From contig LSSK01000017.1 in NCBI GenBank assembly GCA_001969505.1, forward strand, positions 1-64,000: a DNA stretch of 64,000 nucleotides, given 5' to 3'. The translations under genes were made by a program, and so were the position numbers. Below are positions 17,071 through 46,372 of the stretch, in pieces. Each line of letters begins with the position of its first letter. The stretch's first letter is position 1. Source of the stretch: Zancudomyces culisetae (taxonomy: Eukaryota; Kickxellomycota; Harpellomycetes; Harpellales; Legeriomycetaceae). The notes beneath the pieces were generated by a model. It saw only the letters and a program-made list of their open reading frames with translations, ran no database searches and had not been told where the DNA came from.

Positions 17071-19649
17071 ATGAGCGAAAAAAGGGTGGCCTTCATCGAT
17101 CGGGTAGGTAGTCCAAAAACTGATATCTCGAACGCATATTGACTTGTTATATAACCTCGAATTCTACTAAAAATTTGAAATTTTTAAACAGATTCGAGTG
17201 ATTGAGTCTTACATTTGTTTTGCAACATAAAATAAAACATGATAAAATAAACTAGATCGAATTAGAACATTTCAAAATTGGCGAGTTAAAATCGATTATG
17301 AAATTTCTCGTTAAGGAAAAGATTATCCAACATGGGTGCACGGGGCAAGACAGGAGGGAAAACATAATTGTGGACTTGTACAATATAATCAAATACATTT
17401 ATAACCTTCGAACTTTCGAAGATTACTCTCGTTTGCTTTCATTTATGTTTTCGCTGCGTGCTTTGGTAATTACCAAAAACAATCCTTATACCCACTTTAT
17501 GTGGCGGGATAACAATGAATATCTCGTAAATTACATTCCTTTGCAGCAAGGAACTGGTAATTTCTATTTTTGTGCGAGCGATATACAAAGAGGCAACGAT
17601 GGTTACAATAGTATTACCAATACCAGCCGCAACTATCCCCAGCCCAACTCCTACAGAAACACGCCCAATAGTAATAATGTAAATAATCAAAGTATTAGCT
17701 CCACGAATGAAATTTACAAGCAGCAGCAACTAATGTATCAGAATTTTGGCGGCGGTGCTGGTGATACCAGCATGCGAAATCCAAGTAGTAGTACTGGTAT
17801 TGTGGGAGGTAGAGAAACGGGAGTGTTTGAAAGGTTTAAAAATATAAAGTTTGCTGAAATCCCATTTTTTACGATCGAGAAACACATCGGAATCTACCAA
17901 GCATTATACAGTAAATCTCTGAATTTTTTTTTTTGTATTCTTTTTTATTTGGATTTAACATTTACAAATGGGCGAAATGCTTGTAATATTATATATGTAT
18001 ATAACTTTTAAATGCCAATTATACCGATTCATCTTGTTTAAAAATATATAGTGACGAGAGACCAGCCAAAAACTGTTTCCTGGTTTGTTAATATTGCCGA
18101 GATTGCAGAAAAACTGAGGGATACACAGCACGAATACAAAATCAAGATATTTACATCAAACCTTAGTTGTGTGAACAGGTCATATTTGCCTGGTGACGAG
18201 GGGGCCAAAATATCATACCCCGAGGAGTTTGAAATAAGAATAAACGGAGAAGTTTTAAAGCTATCAGTTAAAAAATATAAGCATGCACAGTTGCTACCCA
18301 TAGACATTACACAATTTATAGATGCAAATAGGAGCATTATCAAACTAGATATGTTTTACAGGGATAAGGTTAAGGATACAGTAGCAGGAGTGAATTTGGT
18401 ACGAACGGTTCCCATTACAGATTTACTGGAGAAACTGAAGCAGACACGGGTGATGACAAAGGAATTTGTTCTTGCGCGCCTGAAAGATAAAGCAAATGAA
18501 GATGAGCTTATCCCGCTGAACGTAAAACTGTCGTTAAGATGTCCTATTGGAATGATTAGAATTAAGGATCCAGTCAGGTTTAAACAATGTAGCCATTTGC
18601 AGTGTTTTGATGCTCTTTCATTTTTAGATTCGAATCAAGCATACATGACATGGCAATGTCCTGTTTGTAATGTATACTACAAAGACTGGAGCGACTTGTA
18701 CATTGACTCTTACTTTGAGGATTTACTGAATCAGTCGCCAACTGATGTTGATTTTGTATATACTTGTCCAAATGGCAACATAATTAACAAACCTGGTACA
18801 GACCTTCACAGTCCCACTATGGATAAAATAGAAAGTGGCGGTATAAACAGTACCAGTAGTGGCACAAATCTCAAGGCTGAAGCTTCGTGTATGTCTGATA
18901 CTGTATCTTGTACAGTTTCAGGGGATTCACTGACTTCACCTTCATCCCGTCCTCCTGTTTCCAATGTCTACTCGCCAAATCCTACTAGTACCACTACAGC
19001 CACTACTAGCAACGGTGGTGCAGTGCCACAAATATCACCTCATGAAACCACTGCCAATAGCATTACTAAAACGCCCTCCAAAAAAAGCATCGATGTTGTA
19101 GACTTGACGCTATCAGATGACGATGATGGTGTTGATGCCGGTGTTGATGCCGGTGTTGATGCCGGTGTTGATGCTGGTGTTGATGCTGGTGCTGGTGCTG
19201 ATACTGGTACTGGTATTTTTATTGATGCTGGTGCTGGCAGCACTACATCATTATTAGAGGACACCCAGGCAGAGACCCTAAAAAATGCTGCCAGTGCCTT
19301 AAATACAAATGATATTAATGAAACAAGTAATGTTTCTATTGACACCATAAATGAAAGTACTAATCAGAGCAATAGCTATATCGCGCCCACCAACACAGAA
19401 GACAGTATGAACCTTAGAATTAATATTAACGAAGATGCCATTACTGAGGCTAATACCGGCGGATCCCATACGACTAAGAACACCAGTAATAGTACCATCA
19501 ACATCAGTAGTACTCTCTCTACTATCAATAATACAATATCTTCAAAAACACAGCCTGCTTCATTTAACGAATTTTTCGACGTCTTAGAGAGTGATTTTGC
19601 TGCTATTCTTTCAAAATCACAGATGGATATTCGTAACTTTACACTCTAG
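17071..19649 (+). CDS. SIZ1: PIAS/Siz-type SUMO E3 ligase
   Basis: Three exons, 17071-17103, 17256-17910 and 18052-19649, give 761 residues. A SAP-like helix pair lies at about 10-50 (HFKIGELKSIMKFL). The PINIT region covers about 170-350, and the intron 2 junction restores IGIYQALYMTRDQ inside it. The SP-RING is complete: C393, C409, H411, C414, C432 and C435. A SUMO-interacting motif, VVDLTLSDDDD, lies at 578-588, followed at once by a (GVDA)n tract. The tail is Ser/Thr/Asn-rich. Siz proteins bind Ubc9~SUMO and direct SUMO to targets such as PCNA and septins. It could equally be the Nfi1/Siz2 paralogue; SIZ1 is used as the family name. Confidence 0.88.
19127..19200 (+). repeat. in-frame 12-nt coding minisatellite (GVDA)n
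   Basis: Near-identical GGTGTTGATGCC/T units repeat in frame, coding five Gly-Val-Asp-Ala units and then drifting to GAGA and DTGTG. It lies directly after the SUMO-interacting motif of the Siz protein. Differences are confined to third positions (GCC or GCT), consistent with recent slippage. Confidence 0.9.
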
Positions 19650-19844
19650 ATTAATAGTGTTTTTTGATTTTTTTTTAATTCTTATTTTTGGCTATTAGTT
19701 AGGTATTTAAACATAATAGTCATCGAATCCCCACAAAAAAAGTTGTAACGATACAAATAGCTACTGCCATCCACAACCTATATTAATGGCAATAATTTTT
19801 TAACAAGAGTTTCTCCTTTAGAGTGCGAATATCTTCACATTTTT

Positions 19845-20128
19845 ATGTATGAAAGAATTGTATTTGGAACCACAAGGTAGCACCACTCTCTTAGTCGTAA
19901 TAAGAGTGCTTATGAATCATACAATCACCATCAAATAGAGTTTCTGCTGTGTATGACACAAAGGTTAGGAGGTATTGAAAAGTTCAAACTGAGCGTATGG
20001 ATCGAGATCATAGCCATGATCAGGTGTTGGGATGAGACTGTAATATGAATACATGATGGAAATCAGGGCTAAAGCGAGCACCCGGAATGTGATAGATGTG
20101 TATTTGTGTATTTGTGTATTTGTAATTT
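19845..20128 (+). repeat. left copy of 280-bp dispersed inverted repeat
   Basis: This stretch reappears, reverse-complemented and nearly base for base, at 35006-35281. By eye the copies differ at three substitutions plus one extra TATTTGTG unit. On the + strand both copies start a 29-codon frame (MKELYLEPQG..., ending TIK). On the opposite strand both hold a longer frame ending LIPTPDHGYDLDPYAQFEL and then FNTS. Neither frame is recognised. The copy ends sharply at both sides, with no terminal repeats or target-site duplication seen. Confidence 0.9.
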
Positions 20129-20362
20129 CAACTTTGCTTTTTATTGGTTGCTAACCAGATCGCAATCATTTTGAATTTCCTGTGAAAAGAATTTTTCTGT
20201 TTTGAGCTGATGTGGTAAAGCAATAAAACCAACTGCGTTCACAAGCAAAAAAAAAATAATCTCAGTGCTAGCTGGCTTATCTGTGTGCTTTCTAATTATT
20301 TGAAGGATACATCCAAATATTATATGAACAAAGATACCTCAACAGGATCAACATGGTACATA

Positions 20363-20363
<1 letters not shown>

Positions 20364-20396
<33 letters not shown>
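20364..20396 (+). repeat. (TA)n microsatellite
   Basis: A pure TA tract of 33 nt in the intergenic region upstream of the elongase gene. Confidence 0.95.
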
Positions 20397-20401
<5 letters not shown>

Positions 20402-21030
20402 TTGGCCTTATTTTGCGTTAAGGCAGTTGCTAGGGTTATAGGAGGGTTGTTCATTCTACTTATCAAATGTTGTTATGAGTTATCGATTGACATTGAAACG
20501 TTTTTATTATTTGGCCTTTGATGCGTGGATTTACGCAAATTAGCTTCCGATACAGCTACTTGAAGAATTTTACTTTCATGCTATTTGCTATAAAAAAAAA
20601 ATGATTGTGATATTTGGCGCGGAATAATTAATTTCGTTTTTCGGAATATCCAAGCCCATGTCGTAAATGGGGTACCAATGTGAATTTTTCAAAGGCTAGG
20701 CAAAACAATGAAAGCTCTGAAATTGTGTTCGTATATTTCCAAATGTGTTTGTAATCTAATTAAAAAATTTTCTCGTTTTTTTTCCGAAACCTAAATATCA
20801 AGCCCCAATCAACAGTTTAAATTAATTACAGATTGTAAAAGCCAAATTAACATTTAAGGCGCAAAAAGTAAGCATTGTAGCTTTTTATAAAACTTCTAGC
20901 AACTAGAGTACAAAACACCAGTTGGGATATTATAACTACTAAAGTTGGCCTTGAAAAACAACCTAATAACAAGGTCATTTCAAAAAGTCCGTAACAATAA
21001 CGAGAAAAAAAATAAACGAGAAAAGGAATA

Positions 21031-21846
21031 ATGGTGGTGTGGCCTCCAGCAGGAATAACAGTAGTACCTGAGGATATGATCCTTGGGTCTCTATCCAAGT
21101 ACGTAATGCAACCTCAGTACGTACTGACCATCATCTTTACTTATGTCATTCTTGTTCATGTGTTGCAACCACCAAAGGAAAAATCAACAGTGTCAAGAAT
21201 CGAAGCCAAGAAAAGCACCAAGGATATTGGAAAAGTCGCTAAGCAGAATAGTGCTCTTACTGCCTTTATCTTCTTGCACAACACATTCTTGTGCTTGTAC
21301 TCTGCTTGGACATTTGTGAAGTCCGCACCATTGGTATATAAAGTATTTACAACAGAGGGTGTGTGTGATCCAAACAACGTATCGTGGAACAGTGGGATGC
21401 TTGAGATAACATACTTGTTCTACTTGTCAAAATACTACGAATTTGTAGATACTGCAATTATCTTGATGAAGGGACGTCGCGTGATAACCCTCCAAACATA
21501 CCACCACGCGGGGGCAGTACTGGGCATGTATTTGGGATGCCTGTTCATTCCCACACAGATATTTGTTTTTGTCGTATTCAACTCATTTGTGCACACAATC
21601 ATGTATGCATATTATGCGCTCACAAGTATTGGGTTTTCTCCGTCCGGAAAAGAATACATTACAAGACTGCAACTTGTTCAATTTTTTACAGGAGTCCCTG
21701 CTGGTATTATCATGAACTGTATGGAGCATTGCAACGACTTTTATAAGGTCATGGCCACGTCTGTGAATCTAGCATATGTGGTTTATCTAGCAGTTATGTT
21801 TTTAGATTTTTCCAAAAAAACGTATCGTAAGAAAAAAGCGGTGTAG
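21031..21846 (+). CDS. ELO-family fatty-acid elongase, copy A
   Basis: Single exon, 271 residues, with about seven hydrophobic segments. It is a 3-ketoacyl-CoA synthase of the ER elongation cycle. Family motifs are FLHNTFLCLYSAW, KYYEFVDTAIILMKGR, the histidine box LQTYHHAG (Q-x-x-HH rather than H-x-x-HH) and NSFVHTIMYAYYAL. The Q variant is seen in some elongases outside the Elo1/2/3 group, so substrate class is uncertain. The C-terminus KKKAV has Lys at -3 and -4 and could act as an ER-retrieval signal. The first two thirds are almost identical to the inverted copy at 36198-37010, while the last third is clearly diverged. Confidence 0.9.
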   Translation: MVVWPPAGITVVPEDMILGSLSKYVMQPQYVLTIIFTYVILVHVLQPPKEKSTVSRIEAKKSTKDIGKVAKQNSALTAFIFLHNTFLCLYSAWTFVKSAPLVYKVFTTEGVCDPNNVSWNSGMLEITYLFYLSKYYEFVDTAIILMKGRRVITLQTYHHAGAVLGMYLGCLFIPTQIFVFVVFNSFVHTIMYAYYALTSIGFSPSGKEYITRLQLVQFFTGVPAGIIMNCMEHCNDFYKVMATSVNLAYVVYLAVMFLDFSKKTYRKKKAV

Positions 21847-22298
21847 TTTTTTTTTTTTAGCTTTTTTTTTGGAGTTTGCAGATAATAAAAATCTAAGCGG
21901 TTCATGCCAAAAATAAACTATACTTCAGGCTTTAGTTCTTTTCATATAGCGTTACTATCCCTCACAACTTGAAGCAGATATATTCTCATGTCCACCTTTT
22001 TATTAAGCAAATACGACAGCTGTATCATAATAAGGGGAAGGTTTATAAAGCTTGGCCATGAAACACATGATCGTCAATACCAAATACCATTTCCCTTTGG
22101 ATACCGGATTTTCTTCAAATGAAATTTTTTTATTATGTTTATTCAGATAATTTTTGCGGAATTGAAATTTTTCAGACTTTAAAAGTGTTCAAAGTTTGGG
22201 GGGTTTAAGAAATTTTGAAAATATCAAGCTATATTTACCTTGCCCTTTTCAAAATTCTTATTTCAAATACAGGTTGAGACAACGTCATAAACTGAAAA
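21847..22298. other. intergenic region ELO-LSM8
   Basis: About 450 nt, A/T-rich, holding the elongase terminator and the LSM8 promoter. No exon was seen. Confidence 0.5.
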
Positions 22299-22920
22299 AT
22301 GGTGGATCTAAGCAGCTTTCTAAACGGTACTAAATGATTATATTTTTCGAATAATGCTAAAGAGATTCTAAAATTTTGATTTTATGATTTAGACAAAGTT
22401 GGTGTCGTCACAAACGATGGAAGAGTTATAGTAGTAAGTTCAAGATGATATTCTAGCTTTAAAATGAAAGCAATCATTCCTATTTGTTTCGATTGTAATG
22501 TTTTATGGGATATTTACAGCTCGACTGACACAAGCTACGTACTTTTGCAAAATAATATAGGGGACTTTGGTGGGGTTTGATAGCTCAACCAATTTAATAC
22601 TTAACAATACACATGAACGGGTATTCAGTGAAGATACAGGCTGTGAGTTTATCGAATTAGGAGCATACATTATCAGAGGCGATGAAGTGTAAAGCATTTA
22701 TACTTGAAGTATTTTTCGGGCTCAATTTGCCATGTTTATATCGATAGTTGTTGAAAACCATTTTAAAGCTAACGGTATTCGATAAATCAAACACATTCGC
22801 AATTTATTAAATGATAATGAAATATATAGCGCAATAGTAGGAAAAGTAGAAAAGGAGCTAGATGAAAAAATAGACTGGACACAGATCAAAGCAGAGGCTT
22901 TAGCGCCTGTACAGCACTAA
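22299..22920 (+). CDS. LSM8: U6 snRNA-associated Sm-like protein Lsm8
   Basis: Four short exons, 22299-22326, 22393-22433, 22561-22688 and 22830-22920, give 95 residues, almost the length of human LSM8 (96). Sm motif 1 reads VGVVTNDGRVIVGTLVGFDSSTNL across three exons. Sm motif 2 is LGAYIIRGDEVAIVG. The C-terminus DWTQIKAEALAPVQH matches the human IRAEPLNSVAH tail in layout. Lsm8 defines the nuclear Lsm2-8 ring that binds the 3' end of U6 snRNA. Intron 1 starts GTACTA. The gene converges on the Etr1-like gene with only 81 nt between the stop codons. Confidence 0.93.
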
Positions 22921-23001
22921 ACTTTGCATATATGGAATACTGTTGATATTTGGAGACGGACTTCATTAAGGCTGGCGTATAGTGCAGAGGGAAACCCCGG
23001 C

Positions 23002-24114
23002 TTAGAGCTTGCTGGTAAAAACAAGTGCTGCCTTCTTTGGGGAGTATATGGCGTCAAGCAGGCGGGACTGGAATGAGGACTTGCTTTCAAGGTCAAACAT
23101 GTTGAATGGCTCTGCGAGCTGCGCGACGATGCGATCTTCTCTCAACAAATCAAACAGATGGTTCCATACCTTTAGCCAGTCTTCTAGGGAGTTTTCTCTG
23201 TACCAATGTGTCAACCAGAAACCACAAACCTTAATATCTTTGAATATAAGCAGTGGGACATCAACTGCAATAGAGTTTACGCCGGACATCATCCCATAAT
23301 TTACAAAAACGCATCTATTTGGGAGGATTCTTGCAAGCGAAGCAGCAGCAGGCCCGCTTACACAATCAAATGCCAGGCGTAGGGGCCCAGGCAAATTTTT
23401 GATTATCTTTTTAGTTTCTGCAGATTCCAACTCATGCTCCTTTATGATGATGTCAGCACCAAGTTTCTTTAAATAAACTTCAGTTTCATTGTTACCGTTT
23501 TTATGTTCTCTAATGATATTTATGGTTCGGAATCCCCATAGTTTGGCCAGCTGGATCACAAGCTGACCAACACCACTGTTTGCACCATTTTGGATGATGT
23601 AGTCTCCTGGGTTGAGCTTTACTATTGAATCAAGCATGAGGTATGCCGTCGCCCCGTTCACCACAACTGAACCTACTTTTGCTGGTGTCAGACCCTTCTT
23701 GTTTTTTATTACAATAACGTCTGAAGGCGAGAGCTCGATGTGAGTTGCCCATGTACCTACTGTGCCCATACTTCTGGGCAAAATCCAGTCGCCAACCTCA
23801 ATTTTTTCCCCGAGTTTGTCTTTTGCATTTGCCTCGCTTCCTATCTCCACTATTCTACCAACACCTTCATGCCCTGCCACGTGTCCTTCAACGCTTTTGG
23901 CAGAAGTTGTAGTCAGTTGGGCCCGTTTTTTAAAATTTGGGTACTCTCCTTTGATTTGGAGCAGGTCTGAAGGATTTATAGGCGCATACATTATTTCTAC
24001 CATTACTTTTTTCGGAGACACGGGTTTTATCTCTACGTCATGCGTTTCAAGAACTTGTTTTGGTTCTCCTCTTTTTGAAAAAACAATGTACTTTCCTACT
24101 CTTTTGCTTTCCAT
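23002..24114 (-). CDS. ETR1: Etr1/MECR-type 2-enoyl thioester reductase with C-terminal SKL
   Basis: Single exon, 370 residues. It is a medium-chain dehydrogenase/reductase that reduces trans-2-enoyl thioesters with NADPH. Family features are YAPINPSDL, the catalytic Tyr58 in GEYP, GHEGVG, VNGATAYLML, the nucleotide-binding loop QNGANSGVGQLVIQLAK (175-191), and GFWLTHWY near the C-terminus. Etr1/MECR normally works in mitochondrial fatty-acid synthesis. Here the N-terminus (MESKRVGKYIVFSKRG) is not a convincing presequence, an in-frame stop lies just upstream, and the last three residues are Ser-Lys-Leu, a canonical peroxisomal PTS1. Peroxisomal or dual location is inferred. Confidence 0.9.
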   Translation of the reverse strand: MESKRVGKYIVFSKRGEPKQVLETHDVEIKPVSPKKVMVEIMYAPINPSDLLQIKGEYPNFKKRAQLTTTSAKSVEGHVAGHEGVGRIVEIGSEANAKDKLGEKIEVGDWILPRSMGTVGTWATHIELSPSDVIVIKNKKGLTPAKVGSVVVNGATAYLMLDSIVKLNPGDYIIQNGANSGVGQLVIQLAKLWGFRTINIIREHKNGNNETEVYLKKLGADIIIKEHELESAETKKIIKNLPGPLRLAFDCVSGPAAASLARILPNRCVFVNYGMMSGVNSIAVDVPLLIFKDIKVCGFWLTHWYRENSLEDWLKVWNHLFDLLREDRIVAQLAEPFNMFDLESKSSFQSRLLDAIYSPKKAALVFTSKL

Positions 24115-24744
24115 TTTGTCCTTACTCTGGGTTGTTTAGAATTATTGATTTTTTATTGAGTGAGTTTACTCTTAGTGTATATAGCTTCTGTTCAAAAACG
24201 AATAGATAGAAAAAAGTTTATAGCGACCTTCGTCTATTTAACTGAAAAGTTGATTCTCTGCAAAGTTGAAAAATACTGAGCTAAATTAGATTTTCGATAG
24301 CATAAAATAAGCACACAGAACCTTGTGTGTAAAGAGCTATCAGTATTTTCTGCCCAGAAACACATGCAAAACTATTAGTAATCAGTTACAGAATTTCAGA
24401 ATCACATTAAGTCATAGCGTAAATCCAGCAATTACCAAACAGCGTCCCTAAACAAATTGTCAACCACAAACCATCAAGGAGAATGTAACTGAAACCAAAC
24501 CTACATTTCCAACTATCCTCAAGCTTTTCTCGCCTTCCAAATCTTTTTCTCCCTCTCTCACTGATAATTATTAGCTCAAATTATTTGAGACGAAATTGAA
24601 TTTAACCAATTAGCCAATAAGCCAATTGGTCCAATAGACATTTGTTTGAGGTATGATTTCATTTATTTGCAGTTTGAATACCAGAGTTATTTAAAAACAA
24701 ATATTAGATATAAATAATAGAACTGGAAACAAAAATATACAGAT
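24115..24744. other. intergenic region between ETR1-like and EMC3
   Basis: About 630 nt. It is the promoter of the leftward Etr1-like gene and the 3' region of leftward EMC3. No exon was recognised. Confidence 0.5.
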
Positions 24745-25868
24745 CTACGCACGCTTCTTTGAATTTAGCTGGGAGGCAGAATCACCAAGATCGTGGTTTT
24801 TCTTTCCATACATCTTTAAAACCCTATTCTCAACGTCTTCAAGATCCCATTGGTAGTGTACCAATTCCAAATTCTCTTTGATCCCCAAAAATAGTTTATG
24901 ATAATCTTGCGGACCAGGCTGTTGTTGTTGTTGTTGCTGTGGCATTCCCATACTGCTCATCGCCTGCATATCCTGTAATCCACTACCTGTACTATTTGCA
25001 CCAAGAATCAAAGTAAAAATACCTCCCAACCCAAAGAGATTAAGAAAATACCATGATAGAGAGCTAACCCAAGTTGCATCCATATATGGTGTGTTAATTC
25101 CCGATTGAAGCATCGATTTAAAGCTCATTCCTAGCGGAAATGGAATCTTGATTAGTATGAATCCAGAAAAAAAATATTGGATCCATCCCATAATTATTGT
25201 CTGTGGAACAATCGTCATCATTTGACCCTTGACTCCATCAAGCATCGATTCCATAGCTTTGGGATCTGACATGGGATTTGGTGCCCCTTTGTCTTTATTT
25301 TCTTTGTTCTCTAAATATTCACCATCTTCGAAGGCCTTACAAAATGCAACTCTACGTTCCTCGAATGAATTTTGAGGAACATGGCCGGCATGTTCTATCA
25401 AGGTTCCCGCTCTAAGCATCATGTTCCTATAAAACATCAATATATACATTTGAATCCCTTTGTTCTAAAAAAGCGTTATACAAAGATATACTCTCTTACC
25501 CTTGTCGCATGGCTTTTGTTGGGCTTTGCTTGGGTTTTTTAGTGAATAACACGGTCAGTTGATGTCGTAATACGCCGACCAAGATCATCACCACCATAAT
25601 CGGGAATAATACCCATTCTCTAATCTCTATTTTTTTATATACAGTCATTATAGCAAGTAGAATAAATATATCTAGAGGCGTAAGTACTCGTGGTTCACTG
25701 GATCCCAACTTTTAATTCAGAATACCCATACCTGGATCTAGATTCAAGGTTTGGCTTAACCTATTTTTTTTCGATTTATAAAATTTAAGAAAATGAAATA
25801 TGAGGGGAGTGATTGTAGTCAAAAGAGTATGAATTGTCAGACACTTACTTTACTGATGGCCCCACCAT
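24745..25868 (-). CDS. EMC3: ER membrane protein complex subunit 3
   Basis: Four exons in transcript order: 25849-25868, 25732-25760, 25500-25626 and 24745-25426, giving 285 residues. The two tiny first exons (20 and 29 nt) join so that LNLDP-EIREWVLFPI is restored, matching the conserved start of Emc3. Without them the frame has only a TTG start. Three membrane segments are visible: about 20-40 (WVLFPIMVVMILVGVL), about 115-140 (TIIMGWIQYFFSGFIL) and about 170-195 (WVSSLSWYFLNLFGLGGIF). A Q7 tract lies in the cytosolic tail. Emc3 is the Oxa1-superfamily subunit of the insertase for tail-anchored and multipass proteins. The gene is divergent from PLP2, with 410 nt between the start codons. 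Confidence 0.9.
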
Positions 25869-26278
25869 TTTAACGATACGTTGTTGATAGAGAATTTGTT
25901 TGCTTTGTTTTATTAATGTTGTTTAATTTTTGGGGGTAGTATAATAAATATTTAATTATTTAGCACTGAATTTTATCTGCCATTGAAAGGTTTCTGAGCT
26001 ACTAGATATTGGAAAAATGAATTAAACAGACGCAAAATAATTAGAAAAATATAATTTTTGTGTTTGAAGAACCCTTATTGGCTACAGTTTTTAATTGCGT
26101 TTACGACTTTGGTTTGTGTAAACCTTAGAAGAAAATCAGCAAATGTCATTAAACATTTACAACTAGAATAATATATTAAAATCTATAAAACCACTCTATA
26201 TTGAATGAAAAAGACTGTATAAAAATAAAAGAACAGCCACTCTTATAAGGAAAATAAAGGAGATACCTGAAATTCAAG
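25869..26278. promoter_or_regulatory. divergent promoter EMC3/PLP2
   Basis: This 410-nt A/T-rich region lies between two divergent start codons. No specific factor site was recognised with confidence. Confidence 0.5.
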
Positions 26279-27203
26279 ATGCAAGACATAAATGAAGATA
26301 CAGAATGGAACGATGCTCTGCGTAAAATGGGGATTATTCCAGAAAAGCCCAAAGTTGATCCAAACGAGCTACTCGATTTGGCAGTTGAAGCGCGTGATGC
26401 ATATGAAGCGGAAAAACTATCAAAATTGGATTTGGATGAACTCGATGAACTTGAAGATCTTGAAGACGATGATGTGTTGGAGTCATATAGACGCCAACGA
26501 CTAAGTGAGCTCGCTGCCAAAGAAAAGACTGAAAAATATGGAGAGGGAGTGGTTGCAATATCTAAGCCTGACTATAAACGGCAAGTCACTGACGCTAGTG
26601 AAACATGCTGGGTGGTTGTTCATTTATATAGAGACAGGTAAATATGTGCACATTGTCGAGTTGTATTTATAAATATTATGTATCCAGCGATTGAAAGTAC
26701 TCTGGAAATAAATGCGTATACATTATAATGAATAGTATTCTTGAGTGCAAGCTAGTAAACAAGTTGCTAAATGAAGTATCTGCCGAAAATAAGTCCACAA
26801 AGTTTGTAAAGATTGTAGGATCAGAGTGCATTCCCAACTATCCAGACTCTAATCTTCCCACCTTGCTAATTTACAAAGACGGTGATGTTAGGGCTCAACT
26901 GGTGGGTCTAAGCTCTTTGGGTGGATTGAACACAAAAAAAAAAGGTTTGTAAATACAAATATATGTTTTAATTATGTTGATACCTTATACGTAGCGATTT
27001 AAGTTTGTATTCAAGTTTGAACCTCAGTAATCAAAACTGTTCTTCATTTAATGTTAGGTCTGGAGGGATATCTAAGAAGCATTGGTGCTATTGAATCTAA
27101 GCCATCAAAAACCAATGAAAGCGATGACACTGGGGATGATGATGATGATGATGATGAAGAGGACTCCAGTTACAGGAAACCAACGTATATATCTCTAGCA
27201 TAA
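26279..27203 (+). CDS. PLP2: phosducin-like protein Plp2 (PhLP2)
   Basis: Three exons, 26279-26637, 26736-26944 and 27058-27203, give 237 residues. The N-terminus has the PhLP2 signature TEWNDALRKMGIIP. The thioredoxin-like domain follows, with WVVVHLYRDS joined to ILECKLVNKLL across intron 1, then KFVKIVGSECIPNYPDSNLP and LLIYKDGD. The C-terminus carries an acidic D7EED run. Plp2 is a cytosolic co-chaperone of the CCT chaperonin needed for actin and tubulin folding. It is a little shorter than yeast Plp2 (286). All junctions keep phase. Confidence 0.92.
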
Positions 27204-27964
27204 TGACATCGATCCAGATGTACACCTTTTTTTGTTGTTTTTACCTTTTTGTTTGTGTTTCCGTGACTACGAAAGCGTTTAGTACCGGATTCTTGTAAAG
27301 ACCAACTTTGATAAATACTTGTGTTTATATTTTGACTTGCGTTTATGGGTATCACTTTGAAGAGCGTAATTACAACTGTACACAAAACTTTATGTTTATT
27401 TTGGCTGATTGATAGCACATAATTGATATTACTTATACTATAGAAATATCATGAGGTTGTAAATTGATAAGCATTGTGTTTACAACTCTAGCCTCCGAAT
27501 CTCAGACATATTAAAGAAGTATGATGTTTTTTATGGTATCATTTCACATTGATACTCGATACACCCTTTGATTAGGAATATATAGTCCCTTGCATCTAAA
27601 TAAAGGGCTAAGTGAACACCACTCTTCAGCAGACATTAAACAGTTTCTAAAGTATTTCTGATTTAATAACAAACTTTTCGTTTGGCGTTTTTGTTTTTTG
27701 AAATTCTTGACAGTCATATAACAGATTTCAAATCTTTATTTTTACTTTGATTTTTGACGCAAAAAAAATTACGGTAAAATATAAATTAATAATAATAATC
27801 CAAAAACAAAAACAAAAACAAAACAACGATTTGCGAACCGCAAAAATAGAACAATCTTGGTTCAGGCCAATGGTATGTAAGTATCAGTTTTTTATCACTT
27901 GACGCCAATAGGATCGGCTTTAATGATTTTCGATCTCCACTGATTATTCATTGTTTAGGTATCC

Positions 27965-27971
27965 TGAGTCA
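27965..27971 (+). promoter_or_regulatory. Gcn4/CPC1-type site upstream of ARG4
   Basis: The match is TGAGTCA, the exact 7-bp AP-1/Gcn4 core, 184 nt before the ARG4 start. Arginine genes are classic general amino-acid control targets in fungi, so the position makes functional sense. A single 7-mer can also occur by chance. Confidence 0.55.
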
Positions 27972-28039
27972 CTAAGAAACAACAAAGAAGTGGAGAAACC
28001 CCCAACAGGAAATTTTTTTTTTGATACCGAGTAGAATTG

Positions 28040-28046
28040 TATAAAA
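28040..28046 (+). promoter_or_regulatory. TATA box of ARG4
   Basis: TATAAAA lies about 110 nt upstream of the ATG and downstream of the Gcn4-type site, a normal yeast arrangement. Confidence 0.45.
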
Positions 28047-28154
28047 AAGCCCATAAAAACATTCTTTTAGCTTTAAAGTATTGATGTTGTAGCTAGTTTA
28101 TTAAATACCAAAAAGGGTAGTCAAACGAAAAAAAAAGAGAAAATACAAGGCAGA

Positions 28155-29540
28155 ATGAGCTCAAATCTCAAAAAACTATGGGGTGGTCGTTTCTCGGAAA
28201 CCACAGATCCATTGATGGAAGCCTTTAATGAATCGCTGAGCTTTGATAAGGCCTTCTACAAGGCCGATATAATTGGTTCAAAGGCATATGTTAAAGGTAT
28301 AGAGAAAGTTGGAATATTGACCAGCGATGAAGCTAAAGTGTTGTCAGATGGTTTGGATAAGGTGTTGGAGGAATGGGAGACAGGTAAATTTGAAATCAAA
28401 ATGGGTGATGAGGATATTCATACAGCAAATGAGAGAAGGTTAGGCGAACTTGTAGGAAAAGTTGCAGGGAAATTGCACACAGGAAGAAGCAGAAATGACC
28501 AGACCGTGACTGATTTTAGAATATGGATGAGAGAAAAACTTAAAGAGCTCTCAACAATTCTCAAGGAACTCATCGAGGTGATATTGGTCCGTGCTGAAAC
28601 TGAAATAGATGTGTTATTGCCAGGATATACACATTTGCAACGAGCACAACCAATCCGGTTTTCTCATCTGCTGCTGAGCTATGGGTTTTTGTTTCAAGCA
28701 GACTACGATAGGTTACAAGAACTTTACAAAAGAGTAAACTTGTGTCCTTTAGGGTCCGGTGCCCTTGCGGGGAATCCATTCAAGGTTGACAGAGAATATC
28801 TAGCTTCGCTACTCGAATTTGATGGTGTCGTTCAGAACTCCATCACAGGGGTATCCGATCGTGATTTTGTTGCAGAGTTCTTGTTTTGGTGCTCGCTGGT
28901 GATGACCCATATCAGTCGTCTTTCTGAAGATTTTATAATATACTCTAGTGCAGAATTTGGTTTTGTTACTCTTTCAGATGCCTATTCTACCGGTTCAAGC
29001 ATTATGCCTCAGAAAAAGAACCCAGACAGTCTTGAGCTGTTACGTGGAAAAGCTGGTAGAGTGTTTGGAAACATGAGTGGTTTTATGATGACCTACAAGG
29101 GCACGCCTTCTTCGTATAACAAAGACTTGCAGGAAGACAAGGAACCAGTATTTGATTCACATACCACTATTTATTCATCCCTAAAGATCGTTGCAGCTGT
29201 AATTGCAACAATGAAAATTAACTCCAAGAATACCCATGCCGCCTTAACAGATGACCTTTTGGCAACAGACCTTGCTGACTACCTTGTGAGAAAGGGTCTT
29301 CCATTCAGAGATGCACACCATGTATCTGGTTCCGCCGTCAACCTTTGTGAAGCCAAGAACGTCCAGCTTTCTCAGCTTTCCCTTTCTGATTTGCAGTCGC
29401 TACACCCTCTGTTCACTGACGATGTATCAAACATTTGGAACTTTACTCAATGTGTTGAAAATAGATCGTCTACTGGTGGAACTAGCAAATCTAGTGTGCT
29501 AGCTCAAATTGACACGTTGAGAGCATGGCTAAAAAAATAA
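28155..29540 (+). CDS. ARG4: argininosuccinate lyase
   Basis: Single exon, 461 residues, the usual length. It catalyses the last step of arginine synthesis, splitting argininosuccinate to arginine and fumarate. Visible family elements are LWGGRFSE at the start, EDIHTANERRL, LHTGRSRNDQ with the substrate-binding residues, TGYTHLQ-like PGYTHLQRAQP, and the fumarase-superfamily signature GSSIMPQKKNPD with its catalytic Ser. It ends in WLKK. CTG codons occur at several conserved Leu positions (e.g. SHLLLSYG, CSLVMTH), which supports standard decoding. The enzyme is a cytosolic homotetramer. Confidence 0.97.
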   Translation: MSSNLKKLWGGRFSETTDPLMEAFNESLSFDKAFYKADIIGSKAYVKGIEKVGILTSDEAKVLSDGLDKVLEEWETGKFEIKMGDEDIHTANERRLGELVGKVAGKLHTGRSRNDQTVTDFRIWMREKLKELSTILKELIEVILVRAETEIDVLLPGYTHLQRAQPIRFSHLLLSYGFLFQADYDRLQELYKRVNLCPLGSGALAGNPFKVDREYLASLLEFDGVVQNSITGVSDRDFVAEFLFWCSLVMTHISRLSEDFIIYSSAEFGFVTLSDAYSTGSSIMPQKKNPDSLELLRGKAGRVFGNMSGFMMTYKGTPSSYNKDLQEDKEPVFDSHTTIYSSLKIVAAVIATMKINSKNTHAALTDDLLATDLADYLVRKGLPFRDAHHVSGSAVNLCEAKNVQLSQLSLSDLQSLHPLFTDDVSNIWNFTQCVENRSSTGGTSKSSVLAQIDTLRAWLKK

Positions 29541-30144
29541 TTCTTTTCAGCATACATTAAACATACCACTTGGTCATCTATACGATGATTTTTTCTGTTT
29601 TTTCTTGCGTTTTTCTTTTCATCTCTTTGTAAATTTTTTCATAACTAAATCATGGAACAGCGATTTAAACCAAGAATTGGCAAACCTTGATATAACAATA
29701 AACCAGTATACTTAATTTTTATATCCGAATGACATTAAAATGTGGTATATTTAGTTGAGGAATTATCACAGACATTAGAATGGTAAAGTTTGAGAAGCGA
29801 GAATTAGTATAACTGGATAAACCACTAACAGAAAAATATATCACCTTCCCTCCCCCCAATCTACCTAGTCAAGTCTAATTTTTAGTTTAAGATCGAGCCA
29901 TTTAAGAATATTTATTGGAAGTTGATAGTTCCCTAACAGTAACAATGTGAAACAAATGTGCACTTGTCAAGCGGGTGAATAAATGGCAGTAAACCCTCTA
30001 TCTATCCTAAACCTATCTATATTTTTAACAACGACGCTTGCATTCTTCACTATTAAAACAAGCATATATATACCTTAACCCAACTAAACATTTTGCGAAC
30101 TTGTACAAGCTGGCAAGCATGATGCAATCTAATAAAACATCAAG
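29541..30144. other. convergent intergenic region
   Basis: About 600 nt between the 3' ends of ARG4 (+) and the Nur1-like gene (-). T-rich runs follow the ARG4 stop. No exon was recognised. Confidence 0.5.
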
Positions 30145-32327
30145 TTACCGCATGACTGCTTCCCACCAATAACAGTCATCCTCTCCTGATTCTTTATCAA
30201 AATCCAAACTTAGTTTTTCGCATAGCGTTTCGCCGTAAAACCCGACTTTAGAGATCTCGGAGGCAGCACCACTAATACTGGAAACCGATCTGGTATCTGG
30301 TTGAGTGTTGCGTCTTTTGATTTTTCTAGAACTGTTATCTACAACACTATCTTTTCTTATCTCAGCCTTTTTAGACGACTTGCTGATAATTGACTCAATT
30401 TTGTAATAATTTGTTAGTGCTTGGTTCAAAGTGGAGGCCTTTTCCTTCTTATGTTCGAAGTACATTGAAACATTTACTGCTCCATTTCTAGGATACGTAT
30501 TTAAATCGGCTCCTATGGATCGGTATCCCAGATTCTTTTTCGAGTAATTCTTGTGGAAGACCTGACTCTCGCCCGATAATGGCTTTTTAAGAGTTTTTTT
30601 GCTTAGATTACGAGGTAAGCTCGACAGAGCAAGTTTTGAAGACGTGGTATGACTTGTGCTATACTCTCGTGCAAAATTATCAGATGAAGGTGATTTTTTC
30701 ATATTTGAATCTTCTTTGTGAACGTTATCGGTCCGTACATGTATATCTTTGTTTACAAAAGATCCTGCAATCGGTGCCACTGTAACTTTTGAAGTACTCT
30801 GGCTGTTTTGTGATCCAAAAGCACTGAACTTCTTTAAATATATATACATCTCACAGTACTTATAGTTCTAAACATATATAACATAATAAACTTAATGTGA
30901 TACTAAAATACTTTGTGTTCGAGCTAGTACAATTAGTAGGATAATAAAGATCTAGTTACTTGTACAATCTGAATAAGTAGGACTGGCATTAAATACAAAA
31001 GACTTTTTCCACTGAACATCATGATCATTGCTAACTGGACAGGAGAACACCATCTATAGTTGGAGTTTTTGCTTTTTTTAAAAGGAAATTCTTACAATGA
31101 AGTATATGATTGAACTTTAAAGTGTTCTTTTCTTGTATTTTAATTAAGAGTTAAATAGGTTGTCGAACAGGAATAGCTTATAAGGTACGCCGTTTTTTGG
31201 AGTGCTTTTATTTACCATATAAAAGGTAAACAAGCTCGCTTAAATTGTAGTACCAAACAGCTAATTTGGATCGGCAAACACTTACATGAAAAACGTTAAT
31301 TCCTTCTTGCTAATATCTCCATATTCTCTCAAAGGCGCTTTATAATCTGATATTGATGTATTTACTATTGTATCCCTGGTATCAAACACTCTGTATAGCC
31401 TATCGCTATTCACAATTTTAAACAACAATTATTTTATCATAAAAATAAAGTGTAATTGTATGAGAAAACTCGACTTACAGTACCGCAGATAGTGGTGCCT
31501 TTTGTCTTTCAAACGTATTTTTTCTTTTGTAGAACTTTACCAATTCCATTTCAAAGCTTAAATCCAAGTTCAAATCTAAGCCTGAGGCTGAGTTTGAGTC
31601 TAGGTTCTATTTATGAACAGAGTAAACACAAGCGCTTTTGTTACTAAACCCATAGCGCATCTTTTCGTTTTTTATAAGTTATGGTACGCTAGATAAAGTA
31701 TGTACGTGGCCGCTTTCTATACCTCTTTTTTCAAAACATTGTTTACTCTGTTTATCACTTTTAGGTAGTTTTTTATCGAAAAGTATAAAAAAAGACATTG
31801 AAGAATCATGAGCTATTTGGTAGCACATAGCTGTGGTATAAATACTTTTACATCATTTTTTTTTCAACATAAAATCCTGATGTATCCTTTTTGTATATGC
31901 ATTGAGAATAAAGGTTACACATTTAAAATAAATAAATACAACAATGCAATAAAGTATACCTAGGATGTAACCGCAAGGGCGCTTTATTAAAGTATGTCTA
32001 ACTTATCTATAAAACTTACGACTTTGACCTTTCCACCGATTACTACCAGATTCGATAGGATAAAAATAGAAGTTATGGCTATTCCCAATACTGGATCAAG
32101 CTCATTCAGTTTGTCTCTAGCACGAATACAAAGGCGCGTTGGTTAGTACAGAAAAGTAAAATTATGCTATGTAGTCAGAGGATAGTAGGGTAATTGCTAA
32201 AATAATATAATTGGTACCTCAAATAATATACAACAAGCTCCTTTCTATCGATATCTGTTGCCTTTATCGGCAGTGTACGTAAACCAAGTACCTCCTCGTT
32301 AATAACATTCTTATTCAGTGATACCAT
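30145..32327 (-). CDS. putative Nur1/DUF2418-like nuclear-envelope membrane protein
   Basis: Six exons in transcript order, 32218-32327, 32020-32116, 31479-31606, 31286-31405, 30966-31053 and 30145-30867, keep phase at every junction and give 421 residues. The start (AAAATGG context) leads to MVSLNKNVINEEVLGLRTLP. A first membrane segment is AITSIFILSNLVVIGG. After a charged stretch (VKFYKRKNTFERQKAPLS), a second hydrophobic region FFIWCSPVQLAMIMMFSG continues into LLYLMPVLLIQI. The C-terminal half is basic, Ser-rich and without domains. Two-part membrane anchoring, the CSPVQLAMI segment and the disordered tail resemble fungal Nur1, which tethers rDNA and telomeres at the inner nuclear membrane. 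The match is from memory and weak. The gene structure is more secure than the name. Confidence 0.6.
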
Positions 32328-32765
32328 TTTAGCCCAGAGGCTGATTTATTCTGTATACTATATAACCGCTTATCTTTCTATTTTATCAATGACTAAAAAT
32401 TATTTTTTGGCTGCTGTTGCTTATACCTCTGTTGTTATAATTTGTTATTCATGGGTGTACCTATTAATAAATATTAGGTACCTAGTCTTAACCTGTATGA
32501 CTTTATATGTAATGTTTACGCAGATATCGATTTTTTTAATCGTTATAAACGGTGGGTATTATATATTATTATCTAACTAGCCATTTATTTGTCTAACAGT
32601 TGAAAAGTTCTCTTGAATACTAAAATCCGGAGCCCTCATAATCCTTCATGTCGATTTTATACCATTACTTTGTGTTTTATTTGGAATTGTTTTGGTAAAA
32701 TGTCAAAAAATCAATAACGGAGCTTCTAATTTTTATTTGTCTAACCAACTCTAGAATGTTGATAC

Positions 32766-33107
32766 TTATTTCTCTTTCGGCTTCCCAGATTTAATATTCA
32801 TTGTTACAAAACGGTTACAAATTGGGTTCAAATAAAAGGTAACATTGCAACGCTGTAGCGCTCTGTCAAGCAATCTCAAGTGATCAGTATGCTGTAGGTA
32901 TTTAGTAGAAAACCAATATAATTTAGCTCAAATCGCGTTCAGGAAATATACCCCACAATTTCGCGTATTAACTATATAAGCTCAACTTACTATTGTTGGT
33001 TTAATCCAAAAAATGTACATAAAAGCATGACCAACAATACCAAGCACTTTTAACGCTTTTTTGGGGCAGGATGAAGCATTTCTATTAACAGCATATCTAG
33101 GCACCAT
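32766..33107 (-). CDS. small two-exon gene, single-span membrane protein, unrecognised
   Basis: Exon 1 is 32991-33107 and exon 2 is 32766-32891, phase 0, giving 80 residues. The 5' splice site is GTAAGT, and the intron (99 nt) has TCTACTAAAT as branch region and ends CTACAG. The ATG context AATAAATGG is good. The protein starts MVPRYAVNRNASSCPKK, then has one hydrophobic segment (ALKVLGIVGHAFMYIFWI). A soluble tail with two Cys ends in GKPKEK; the Lys at -3 and -5 is not an exact KxKxx retrieval signal. No family was recognised. Two open exons of about 40 codons joined by consensus splice sites make chance less likely, but transcript data are lacking. Confidence 0.5.
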
Positions 33108-33297
33108 TTATTTTGAAAAATAGGCTTCTTTTATAACCACAGGTAAAAGACTCGGTCTCAAATTACAGTCAGGAAAAAAAGGAAAAGAAAAAAAAACTTT
33201 AAATCCTCATCTTTTAGTTTAAACTAAAGAGCGATTAGCATGCACATAATGAAGAAGGACCTTATGGCTACAAGGCGAACATACCTCTAATTTGTCT

Positions 33298-34081
33298 TTA
33301 AATCTGACCAACCTTCAACCTTGTCGACATGACAAGAAAGGAAAATTCATAAATATTAGAAACTCCTATTTTGTCCATAATAATTGATACATACCTCCAA
33401 TAAAACTATAGCAAATATAATACTATACAAAATGAAAAAAAATAATAATAAACTGTTTGCTCAGATGTATCTACGACTATCCAAATTCCCACTTTACAAC
33501 AGCGAAGCTTTGGTCTAGGGTTGTAAGGGAATAAATACATCAGAGTTATAAACATCCTTTACATTTCAAAGTAACCTGACTTGAGACAAACCGCCAATCG
33601 TTTCTACTAAAAAGTTTGTTGCCACTTTGTCTGAAAAGCACAAACTTTTATATTATGCAAGTCACTTTTTGTATTCCATAAAAACACACCCCCATCATAA
33701 AACAATAGATGTAAAGGAATTTTTTCGTTTGAAATTACAAATTGTGATTGGAGAATTTACGTTCGGTGTCCCACAACCAATGTAGGACGTGAAGCAAAAC
33801 TCAATTATGAATTTGCAACAAAGATAATATGTACCTTTTTGTATAAAAAATCGAGCCATTAGCAACTTCGATGCGCAACAAACCAAGCTTGTATGTTTAT
33901 TATTCAATGTGCTAAAATGGGGATCAAATAATATATTTCAAACGATTTGTGTATCAATGTAACCATCTTTATCGATAAAATAAAACCCCTGTCATTATAC
34001 TCTTACCGCAATAAGAACACGATGTACGATTAATGCGAGATAATTATTACCAAGTTCTAGCACACGGTGAACATATGCTGA
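33298..34081 (-). CDS. candidate multi-exon gene, 5' end unresolved, unrecognised
   Basis: A phase-consistent chain runs 34007-34081, 33835-33865, 33576-33630, 33454-33514 and 33298-33405 (stop). It encodes about 109 residues, including YVHRVLELGNNYLALIVHR, DKVATNFLVETIGGLSQVR and FYWRYVSIIMDKIGVSNIY. The first exon is bounded by TTTCAG and GTAAGA. Some other sites are weak (GTTACT, GTTTAT) and two introns are under 65 nt. A further exon at 34231-34282 fits in phase, and a possible first exon starts at 34471. No family was recognised. Free choice among weak sites makes chance assembly possible. Confidence 0.25.
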
Positions 34082-34471
34082 CTGAAAGTTTTAGACAATG
34101 TAGATATAAAATGCTAGAGTAGATGTCTATCTGACATAGACAACATGAAACTGTATAACCCTGTGTTTGATAGTATTCCCAGTTTTGACGTATTTTAGAC
34201 AAGTTTGGGGAAAAAGAAAATGTTTCAAACCTGCATTGTTGATGTACATGTGGCTGTGCTGGAAGAGCTGATTTCGTTAATTCTAGTGATTTACAGCTTT
34301 GTCTATTTTATTAAATTTAATAGATTTAGTTGTAGAAAAAAATGCGCATCAAAAAGTTCTATTGGGAGACCACAAACTATCACAATAAATGTTAAAAGTC
34401 CCTAATAAAATGGCGCTACGAGTGGCACTTACCAAGTACGTGTGTAGAAAGCATACTTTGATTTCCTTCAT

Positions 34472-35005
34472 ATTATAAATATTTATGAAAACTTGTTTGC
34501 ACCTCATTCCAATATGTACTTATAAGAAGTCTTTGTAAATTCACAAAGCACTCGACTCAAAAACCGGTTGGATTTTGCCGAAATTCCTAAAGTGTTGAGG
34601 AGAAAGGTGAAATAAGAATGCTTTTTTTCTAAGAAAAAAAACAGGTTAGACAAATGGAGTAACTGGTGAAACATTACAACACACAGAAATACATGACAAC
34701 CTTCTCGGGTACGGGATCATATCAGAATAAAAACAGGGTTTTACGCAATATGATACTCACTACAAATTAATCCACACTAATTTGCTTTGTCTAGAAAGAT
34801 ACGAATTAGGTAAATGAAAATAACGTAATATATGTATTTTGGATATTAGTTGTGATGGCAATATTGATGGTTAGGACAGTAATGAGTTCAAAAAAAACAG
34901 TATCATAAAAACTGACCGCAACTGTTACATGAGAATAGTCAAAAAAAAAACCCCTTACACTTATATTAGTAAGGTTATTACGCACTATTTAGTGGAAAAG
35001 TTTCA
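34472..35005. other. intergenic region left of the right repeat arm
   Basis: About 530 nt of A/T-rich DNA. A frame enters the repeat from about 34976 on the + strand after an AG. Otherwise nothing was recognised. Confidence 0.4.
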
Positions 35006-35281
35006 AAATTACAAATACACAAATACACATCTATCACATTCCGGGTGCTCGCTTTAGCCCTGATTTCCATCATGTATTCATATTACAGTCTCATCCCAAC
35101 ACCTGATCATGGCTATGATCTCGATCCATACGCTCAGTTTGAACTTTTCAATACCTCCTAACCTTTGTGTCATACACAGCAGAAACTCTATTTGATAGTG
35201 ATTGTATGATTCATAAGCACTTTTATTACGACTAAGAGAGTGGTGCTACCTTGTGGTTCCAAATACAATTCCTTCATGTAT
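35006..35281 (-). repeat. right copy of 280-bp dispersed inverted repeat
   Basis: Reverse complement of 19845-20128, with about 98% identity by eye. Homology stops at the ATGAAGGAATTG end on one side and in the ATTTGTGT repeat on the other. On the + strand here the longer frame reads through FRVLALALISIMYSYYSLI to a stop after FNTS and is open upstream to about 34976. The left copy has an in-frame stop earlier. Confidence 0.9.
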
Positions 35282-36197
35282 AAAAAGATTTGATGGTGCC
35301 GATTTTTTAAAAAAGAGATAAGAATAGAAAAACCTATGCAATAATAATTTTTACTAGATTTTCTTCTCTTCAAATGTTTATCGTACGAAGCCCAAAAAGG
35401 ATGTGATAAAAGTAGTACAAAAGATAAACTAGTGACCAACACCTTAGGTAGAGATTTAAAGATTATATCCTTAGGCACCACTGTTATTCCTGTTGATAAC
35501 CATACTGAAATTGTTGAAATTTGAGTTTTTCTCCTGAAGGAATCTTTAAAAAGCTTTCTCTACTGTCATTAAAAAATATTTCGCAGTGGAAATGGAGGGG
35601 GTTGGGGGGTAAGAGCATGTAGCATCAGTTCCTAGTTTAATATTTCTGGTAGATGGGTCTTTATAAATAAAAGAGTTTAGTTTCATCCCTTTGAGCACTG
35701 CAAAAATAGTCTGCCTACGTATCTTAAACTGCGAAAAGCGTATTCCGGAGAGCGAGAGTGTGGTTGTTTGTTATTATCCTAGGCAGATAAGATTAGGTTC
35801 TAAACTTTGATTTACATTTTTGTTATTAGCCAATGAAAATATACTTGCTCAATGCGCTGCTGTAGTTTACGCGTAAGTTATGTAATTTTGCGAAAATAGT
35901 GGTAGGATTTAGAGAAAAACGTATTTAGAAATTAAAGTGTTCGAGAGTGTGTGCATTCAATACACCCTTCGTCGATCAGTTAATTGCGCTAATATGATGA
36001 AACACGTGACATTATTTGTATCTTCATCTCAAAAGAAATATTAGCCTCTACAAACCAATTAATCGTTAGAATACGTCGCACTTTATTGAAACTAAAAAAA
36101 AACACTAAATCTCAACAACTATGTTAAAAGGATCAAACGTTTCAACTTTATTTCTAGACAACAAAATCTGCAAAAGGCGTCAGTATTCAAAGCATAT
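35282..36197. other. region between right repeat arm and ELO copy B
   Basis: It holds the elongase relic at 35441-35503 and the 3' flank of ELO copy B. The frame at 35188-35481 on the minus strand starts in relic sequence and ends in the repeat, so it is not taken as a gene. Confidence 0.5.
35441..35503 (-). pseudogene. 5' relic of a third ELO elongase gene
   Basis: Reading leftward from the ATG at 35503, about 63 nt align with the start of the two intact elongases (AGGAATAACAGTGGTGCCTA against AGGAATAACAGTAGTACCTG; GATATAATC against GATATGATC; TCTCTACCTAAGG against TCTCTATCCAAGT). A deletion of several bases after the ATG shifts the frame and leads to TAA. Beyond this stretch the match fades. 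It sits 160 nt from the right repeat arm and about 700 nt past the end of copy B, in the same direction. Confidence 0.8.
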
Positions 36198-37010
36198 TTA
36201 CTCTGCCTTTTTCTTGTATGTTTTCTTGGAAAAGTCCAAGAACAAGGAAACAAGAGGGATAACATAAAGCAAGTTCACAGACGTGGCCAAAACTTTGGTG
36301 AATTGGTTGCAGTGTTCGAAGAATGACATTACTGTAGCAACTCCAAAACCGAGGAAGAATTGTGTAAGTTGCATCTTGGTGATGTATTTCTTACCTGGTG
36401 GTGTGAATCCAATACTTGTGAGCGCATAGTATGCATACATGATTGTGTGCACAAATGAGTTGAATACGACAAAAGAGTAGATTTGTGTGGGAATGAACAG
36501 GCATCCCAAATACATGCCCAGTATAGCACCTGCATGATGGTATGTTTGGAGGGTTATCACGCGACGTCCCTTCATCAAGATAATTGCAGTATCTACAAAT
36601 TCGTAGTATTTTGACAAGTAGAACAAGTATGTTATCTCAAGCATCCCACTGTTCCACGATACGTTGTTTGGATCACACACACCCTCTGTTGTAAATACTT
36701 TATATACCAATGGTGCGGACTTCACAAATGTCCAAGCAGAGTACAAGCACAAGAATGTGTTGTGCAAGAAGATAAAGGCAGTAAGAGCACTATTCTGCTT
36801 AGCGACTTTTCCAATATCCTTGGTGCTTTTCTTGGCTTCGATTCTTGACACTGTTGATTTTTCCTTTGGTGGTTGCAACACATGAACAAGAATGACATAA
36901 GTAAAGATGATGGTCAGTACGTACTGAGGTTGCATTACGTACTTGGATAGAGACCCAAGGATCATATCCTCAGGTACTACTGTTATTCCTGCTGGAGGCC
37001 ACGCTACCAT
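36198..37010 (-). CDS. ELO-family fatty-acid elongase, copy B
   Basis: Single exon, 270 residues, inverted relative to copy A at 21031. Residues 1 to about 184 differ from copy A at only about four positions (Val3 to Ala, Val to Ile after HHAGA, and FV to YS in PTQIYSF), and long stretches are identical at the nucleotide level including third positions. From TSIGF onward the proteins diverge (TPPGKKYITKMQLTQFF, then VMSFFEHCNQFTKVLATS). It shares the Q-x-x-HH histidine box. The C-terminus KKTYKKKAE has Lys at -3 and -4, a possible ER-retrieval signal. Upstream and downstream flanks of the copies do not match, so homogenisation is limited to the coding 5' two thirds. Confidence 0.9.
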   Translation of the reverse strand: MVAWPPAGITVVPEDMILGSLSKYVMQPQYVLTIIFTYVILVHVLQPPKEKSTVSRIEAKKSTKDIGKVAKQNSALTAFIFLHNTFLCLYSAWTFVKSAPLVYKVFTTEGVCDPNNVSWNSGMLEITYLFYLSKYYEFVDTAIILMKGRRVITLQTYHHAGAILGMYLGCLFIPTQIYSFVVFNSFVHTIMYAYYALTSIGFTPPGKKYITKMQLTQFFLGFGVATVMSFFEHCNQFTKVLATSVNLLYVIPLVSLFLDFSKKTYKKKAE

Positions 37011-45948: not shown

Positions 45949-46342
45949 GGGGGGGGGGGGGGGGGGGGGGGGGGGGGGNNNNNNNNNNNNNNNNNNNNNN
46001 NNNNNNNNNNNNNNNNNNNNNNNNNNNNNNNNNNNNNNNNNNNNNNNNNNNNNNNNNNNNNNNNNNNNNNNNNNNNNNNNNNNNNNNNNNNNNNNNNNNN
46101 NNNNNNNNNNNNNNNNNNNNNNNNNNNNNNNNNNNNNNNNNNNNNNNNNNNNNNNNNNNNNNNNNNNNNNNNNNNNNNNNNNNNNNNNNNNNNNNNNNNN
46201 NNNNNNNNNNNNNNNNNNNNNNNNNNNNNNNNNNNNNNNNNNNNNNNNNNNNNNNNNNNNNNNNNNNNNNNNNNNNNNNNNNNNNNNNNNNNNNNNNNNN
46301 NNNNNNNNNNNNNNNNNNNNNNNNNNNNNNNNNNNNNNNNNN

Positions 46343-46372
<30 letters not shown>
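45949..46372. other. assembly gap flanked by G30 homopolymers
   Basis: Positions 45979-46342 (364 bases) are N. They are bordered by 30 G on each side (45949-45978 and 46343-46372). Reading frames running through the N tract are meaningless. The equal flanks suggest the assembler or read length stopped inside a long G tract. Confidence 0.95.

Follow-up and report, generated by a model that had tools for sequence, protein, structure and literature searches.

Duplicated genes that were converted ectopically over part of their length are known, among them CCR2 and CCR5 and the red and green opsins. A further case is Hsp68 of Drosophila (PMC3355041). The same report describes staggered-break inversions in which otherwise single-copy DNA occurs at each end as an inverted duplicate; some of these inversions separate duplicated genes. 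Here we describe two elongase genes of the ELO family, A and B, in the harpellalean fungus Zancudomyces culisetae. The analysed stretch of DNA, called the window below, comprises positions 1 to 64,000 of contig LSSK01000017.1 (assembly GCA_001969505.1). The two genes are inverted relative to each other, are identical over almost all of their first 60% and differ strongly in the last quarter. The pattern is best explained, with a probability of about 0.8, by a recent ectopic gene conversion in which two old lineage-specific paralogues would have been homogenised in part, with the last two transmembrane helices, TM6 and TM7, spared.

The two elongase genes

Copy A occupies positions 21031-21846 on the forward strand (271 amino acids) and copy B positions 36198-37010 on the reverse strand (270 amino acids). 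Both genes are intact open reading frames (ORFs) with no visible introns, and their coordinates and frames had been assigned correctly in the first-pass annotation. The Pfam ELO profile PF01151 scores 156.8 bits with A and 162.3 bits with B at a cut-off of 27. The motifs K(X)5DT, L(X)3HH, N(X)3H(X)2MYXYY and T(X)2Q(X)2Q are present in both. The ELO motif list given in PMC10890106 also includes an LF(X)2F box near the end, which is matched by B (LFLDF) but not by A (MFLDF, substitution L256M). A is nevertheless assigned to the family because of its profile score, its predicted fold and the other four motifs. Box 3 is LQTYHH in both copies, that is, of the QxxHH type. The proteins end in KKKAV (A) and KKKAE (B), in agreement with the KXKXX retrieval end of the endoplasmic reticulum (PMC8042400). 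Judging by family membership, both are predicted to be condensing enzymes.

Besides A and B, searches of the same genome yielded one more ELO gene, a distant one on contig C110, which is 34% identical and has an HVYHH box. The best named relatives of B were fungal, with Harpellales in front: Furculomyces boomerangus (55% and 48% identity) and Smittium megazygosporum (48%). In the protein database B itself is present, on a contig of 114,186 bases, whereas A is not among the best 120 matches despite 88% identity, and may be absent from the gene set of that database.

Divergence along the genes

The comparison of A and B falls into three zones. After differences in codons 2 and 3, codons 4-157 (21040-21501 in A, 36540-37001 on the reverse strand in B) are identical in all 462 nucleotides, so that none of the 147 codons other than Met and Trp has changed and 156 of the first 157 residues are shared. 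The synonymous divergence Ks (Nei-Gojobori) is 0 over 102.7 synonymous sites, with a 95% upper bound of 0.029, and the nonsynonymous divergence Ka is also 0. Codons 158-200 (21502-21630 in A, 36411-36539 in B) form a mosaic in which 11 of the 43 codons differ, in clusters at 158-163, 176-179 and 194. All six codons of the first cluster are changed, five of them silently, while codons 164-175, 180-193 and 195-200 show no difference. Equally few runs were obtained in 1 of 100,000 shuffles. Here Ks is 0.40 and Ka 0.04. The remainder, codons 201-271 of A (21631-21843) and 201-270 of B (36201-36410), is strongly diverged. Within codons 201-268, 27 of the 41 codons for the same amino acid differ and there are many replacements; silent sites are saturated and Ka is 0.28. 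A short identical patch at codons 242-245 lies within this part.

In total 66 of the 268 compared codons differ, and an identical run of 154 codons was reached in none of 20,000 permutations. Uniform divergence along the gene, which the first-pass annotation had named as one of two outcomes that would speak against conversion, is rejected by the Ks zones and by the permutation and run tests. Matching flanks, the other outcome, were not found either, and the claim that the flanks differ is confirmed: five comparisons of flanks score no better than shuffles, and four flank stretches searched against the genome gave only self-matches, except for a 40-bp AT-repeat that matches itself. Since the silent sites of codons 201-268 are saturated and the flanks are unmatched, the duplication is older than the identity of the tract would imply. 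The run of silent identity is bounded by diverged homologous sequence, the pattern by which gene conversion is recognised.

The near-identity had been placed between the vicinity of the ATG and about codon 184, followed by sharp divergence. The start and the divergence are confirmed, but strict identity ends at codon 157 and gives way to a mosaic that extends to about codon 200. This boundary lies directly before histidines 158-159 of the QTYHH box. The earlier proposal of a recent conversion of the catalytic part is therefore only half right: recent conversion that breaks off abruptly on the 3' side is the best reading, but the box histidines follow the end of the tract, the histidine of TM5 (188) falls into the mosaic, and the TxxQxxQ motif is in the diverged part.

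An exaggeration of the identity by the assembly, with near-identical 5' parts collapsed into one consensus, is unlikely. The assembly is indeed a draft (859 contigs, 23.1 Mb), and elsewhere in the window a 364-base run of N lies between identical 30-mers. However, this only N run of the window is away from both genes, and the assembly still resolves the small differing patches at codons 158-163 and 176-179. Moreover, a collapse presupposes near identity, so the contrast with the tail would be expected to persist.

The C-terminal quarters

The tails of A and B are 60% identical (42 of 70 positions). In comparison with seven tabulated homologues, A has 22 to 29 identical positions of 71, and B has 29 to 36 of 70. 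Trees of 44 sequences were built for residues 1-157, 201-271 and 158-271. A and B are sisters in all three with support of 99-100% (100/99 for the tail). The end branches of A and B are 0.0054 and 0 for residues 1-157, and 1.59 and 0 for residues 201-271. It follows from the sister relation and the branch lengths that the duplication is old and lineage-specific among the sampled fungi, and that the 5' part alone was reset.

These data bear on a different history, in which an elongase gene was recently duplicated in full and one duplicate then received its 3' end from a different elongase. Such a swap would also produce an identical 5' part, a foreign 3' part and an edge inside the ORF. However, the tails of A and B are closest to each other, A sharing at most 29 of 71 positions with any of the seven homologues, and the only further ELO gene found in the genome is the distant one with the HVYHH box. 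A search with residues 196-271 of A gave three candidates, none at E <= 10, although A itself was not returned and the reach of the search is doubtful. Finally, a young whole-gene duplicate should have matching flanks, and none match. The swap is thus quite improbable. As a donor for A's tail, another elongase was rejected on the sister tails and the small ELO set (three hits in the genome); an origin of this tail in a different elongase lineage is thus unlikely.

The first-pass annotation held that the last membrane segments have been kept different, a wording that implies selection in favour of both tails. The ends do differ, but in a lopsided way: the fast change is confined to A, and B still has the consensus of the family. 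Among 56 homologues, the consensus residues P205 (56 of 56), P252 (54 of 55) and L256 (55 of 55) are all present in B and all absent from A. In relative-rate counts A has an excess of changes with each of nine outgroups, significant with five. A shows no visible damage: the reading frame is open, the KKKAV end and most ELO motifs are retained, and its fold model matches that of B in confidence. The lopsided tails can be read either as a maintained specialisation or as the result of selection on A having been relaxed or altered.

Codon usage also differs between the tails, with C-ending codons at 6 of 22 in A and 16 of 19 in B (p = 0.0004). The C-ending share of B codons 201-270 is far above that of neighbouring genes, which is 0.23-0.46 in eight other named genes and 0.32 in a helicase. 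This suggests high expression of B. B thus gives the impression of a conserved enzyme with good expression, whereas A seems to change quickly and to be expressed less.

Conversion model

From the sequence pattern we infer the following history. A and B would be old duplicates of one elongase of the QxxHH type, born within the lineage of this fungus. Recently one copy would have served as a template and overwritten the other over codons 4-157, with a patchy edge up to about codon 200, the two copies being inverted and about 15 kb apart. Upstream, the tract would have stopped because the copies are not homologous beyond the ORF; downstream, their identity would have been too low for it to continue. 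The quarter with TM6 and TM7 would have escaped; its version in B would have stayed at the family consensus, while that in A would have changed fast with most ELO motifs retained. The outcome would be a pair of enzymes that share their front part but not their tails. Conversion between non-allelic, inverted copies would account for the confinement of identity to the ORF, its clean start by the ATG, its patchy end and the unconverted tail. Selection against conversion of the tail and low identity in that part would have the same expected look.

Predicted structure

The fold models have a predicted local distance difference test (pLDDT) value of 92.7 for A and 91.6 for B. The model helices are TM4 at residues 153-172, TM5 at 176/177-199, TM6 at 207-228/229 and TM7 at 237-265. 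By these positions the identical tract comprises TM1-TM3 and the first turn of TM4, the mosaic zone most of TM4 together with TM5, and the diverged end TM6-TM7. The best structural match of both models is human ELOVL7 (6y7f), which has the same seven-helix fold but only 23% identity over aligned residues, and an HVFHH box in place of QTYHH.

The determinants of chain length in yeast elongases are located in the last helices. The acyl pocket and a lumenal lysine are described as setting chain length in these enzymes (PMC12014800, PMC13267774), and product length is attributed to the space in the acyl pocket (PMC12014800). In the models of PMC10890106, TM2-TM7 form a barrel. If the conversion is real, A and B amount to a natural domain-swap experiment, their differences being almost confined to TM6-TM7 and short patches of TM4-TM5. 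The differing part would belong to the barrel around the acyl chain, and the role of the tail in product length could be asked directly. It would also show a conversion tract that ends within the gene of a membrane enzyme, at the catalytic box. The product spectra of A and B may be different.

Genomic neighbourhood

Self-comparison of the window revealed two long pairs, A/B and R1/R2, both inverted. R is a 294-bp repeat of no known family. R1 (19840-20133, forward strand) lies 0.9 kb upstream of A, and R2 (34991-35286, reverse strand) lies downstream of B. R2 adjoins a relic of a third elongase copy, C (35443-35502, reverse strand), situated between B and R2 just downstream of B. The relic aligns to ELO nucleotides 10-69 with 79% identity over 53 bp, and by eye its start position has no ATG. 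The support for it is at the DNA level: the rest of its gene was not found, and a protein profile search gave no separate row for more of it among the matches listed. The relic, the R pair and the boundary at the histidine box had been overlooked in the first-pass annotation.

R1 and R2 have no other match in the genome and are not collinear with A and B. The segment between them (20134-34990) is a candidate inversion. When it is flipped in silico, A moves to 33278-34093 on the minus strand, and B, C and A form a head-to-tail row in which the gaps around R measure about 0.7 and 0.9 kb. The chances seem even that the present layout arose by an inversion ending at R1 and R2 that split a head-to-tail array B-C-A. 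DNA that is otherwise single-copy is inverted at both ends of the segment, as staggered breaks would leave it, and a staggered-break inversion is the simplest account of the layout. A rearrangement history of the locus is probable.

The same geometry would permit a reciprocal crossover between the inverted 5' parts, which would have flipped the segment and exchanged the tails between two promoters. The 462 bp of perfect inverted identity are a usable substrate, and both upstream regions lie outside the segment with both tails inside. However, the other orientation is not seen in the one assembly, and the R pair, not being collinear with A and B, is left unexplained; we consider this explanation very unlikely. 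Still more doubtful is the idea that the 5' parts are live inverted repeats, repeatedly flipping 14-15 kb and switching the pairing of tail and promoter, with recombination keeping them identical. Beyond the geometry no positive evidence for such a switch was found. Partial conversion of old paralogues is the reading retained below.

Several other interpretations of R were discarded. Its use as a clock for the inversion was dropped for its uneven divergence. As a dispersed repeat it was rejected because the genome search gave two matches only. A structured RNA was rejected as well: Rfam gave no matches at the gathering threshold in the whole window and none at E <= 1 around R1, and the predicted fold of the forward strand is worse than that of shuffles (200 of 200 at least as good), that of the other strand being ordinary (141 of 200). 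An open frame is present at 34991-35158 (forward strand) and on the matching strand of R1, and its end, ...MYSYYSLIPTPDHGYDLDPYAQFELFNTS, is unchanged between R1 and R2. It was rejected as a gene, having 56 codons, no upstream ATG in the stretch viewed and no Pfam match at E <= 10; R may still be a small or spliced gene.

Other features of the window are as follows. Beside A, a gene at 23002-24114 (reverse strand) encodes a protein of the zinc-binding-dehydrogenase type. Its closest relatives are mitochondrial trans-2-enoyl-CoA/thioester reductases from Smittium and Zancudomyces (39-43% identity), so that a second lipid-synthesis gene adjoins an elongase. None of its relatives among the best 120 of 177 matches is from Furculomyces, and locus tags gave no usable synteny in Harpellales. 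The 4.1 kb at 30850-34990, ending at R2, contain no listed ORF of at least 70 codons, which is unusually empty for this gene-dense window, and have a single match in the genome. The gene at 18351-19649 (forward strand) encodes an SP-RING (zf-MIZ) protein whose tail carries a tandem repeat of GVDA. The N run (45979-46342) is flanked by the same 30 bases at 45949-45978 and 46343-46372, and is an assembly gap or a masked stretch in a tandem repeat.

Points against the proposed history

Several observations weigh against the proposed history. The 5' and 3' trees have the same topology, with A and B as sisters in both, and differ in branch lengths alone. The tail tree has 72 columns and carries the warning that the long branch of A meets that of another sequence, P0068. 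The excess of changes in A is not significant with four of the nine outgroups. Codon usage does not name the donor, 23 of 43 codons in the tract being C-ending, a share between those of the two tails. R is ill suited as a clock. Of its 294 aligned sites, 10 differ between R1 and R2: the first 90 bp hold five of these, and the other five are found at the opposite end, next to a change in repeat-unit length, with a clean stretch in between (p = 0.02). This uneven spread points to a separate history of R, which may itself have been converted. The ages of R and the tract are not distinguished by Fisher tests (p = 0.12 for all sites, 1.0 for silent sites). The upstream regions of A, B and C are mutually dissimilar and give no flank support for a tandem origin. 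The comparison concerns a single genome, with no sister species carrying unconverted copies, and a short-read assembler may have erased a few differences between near-identical copies.

Comparison with known systems

A literature search gave no title on converted elongases among the matches listed. The elongase McELO of Mucor circinelloides is similar to A and B in length (276 amino acids), in its ELO motifs and in the LQ of box 3, the Q of which is described as nonessential. Elongation of C16 to C18 by McELO was shown in yeast (PMC10890106), whereas the activity of A and B is a prediction. The layout of the locus resembles the inversions of Drosophila mojavensis, which carry inverted duplicates of otherwise single-copy DNA at either end and some of which separate duplicated genes (PMC3355041). 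However, the segment here is only 15 kb long, and its inversion is a proposed one.

The pattern is real and well marked, and the genomic event, most probably a partial gene conversion, is ordinary in kind. As in CCR2/CCR5, the opsins and Hsp68, a block of silent identity lies within diverged paralogues, and some domains are homogenised while others are not. Unlike those cases, the genes are fungal elongases, inverted and about 15 kb apart, and the edge of the tract lies directly before the catalytic histidines.

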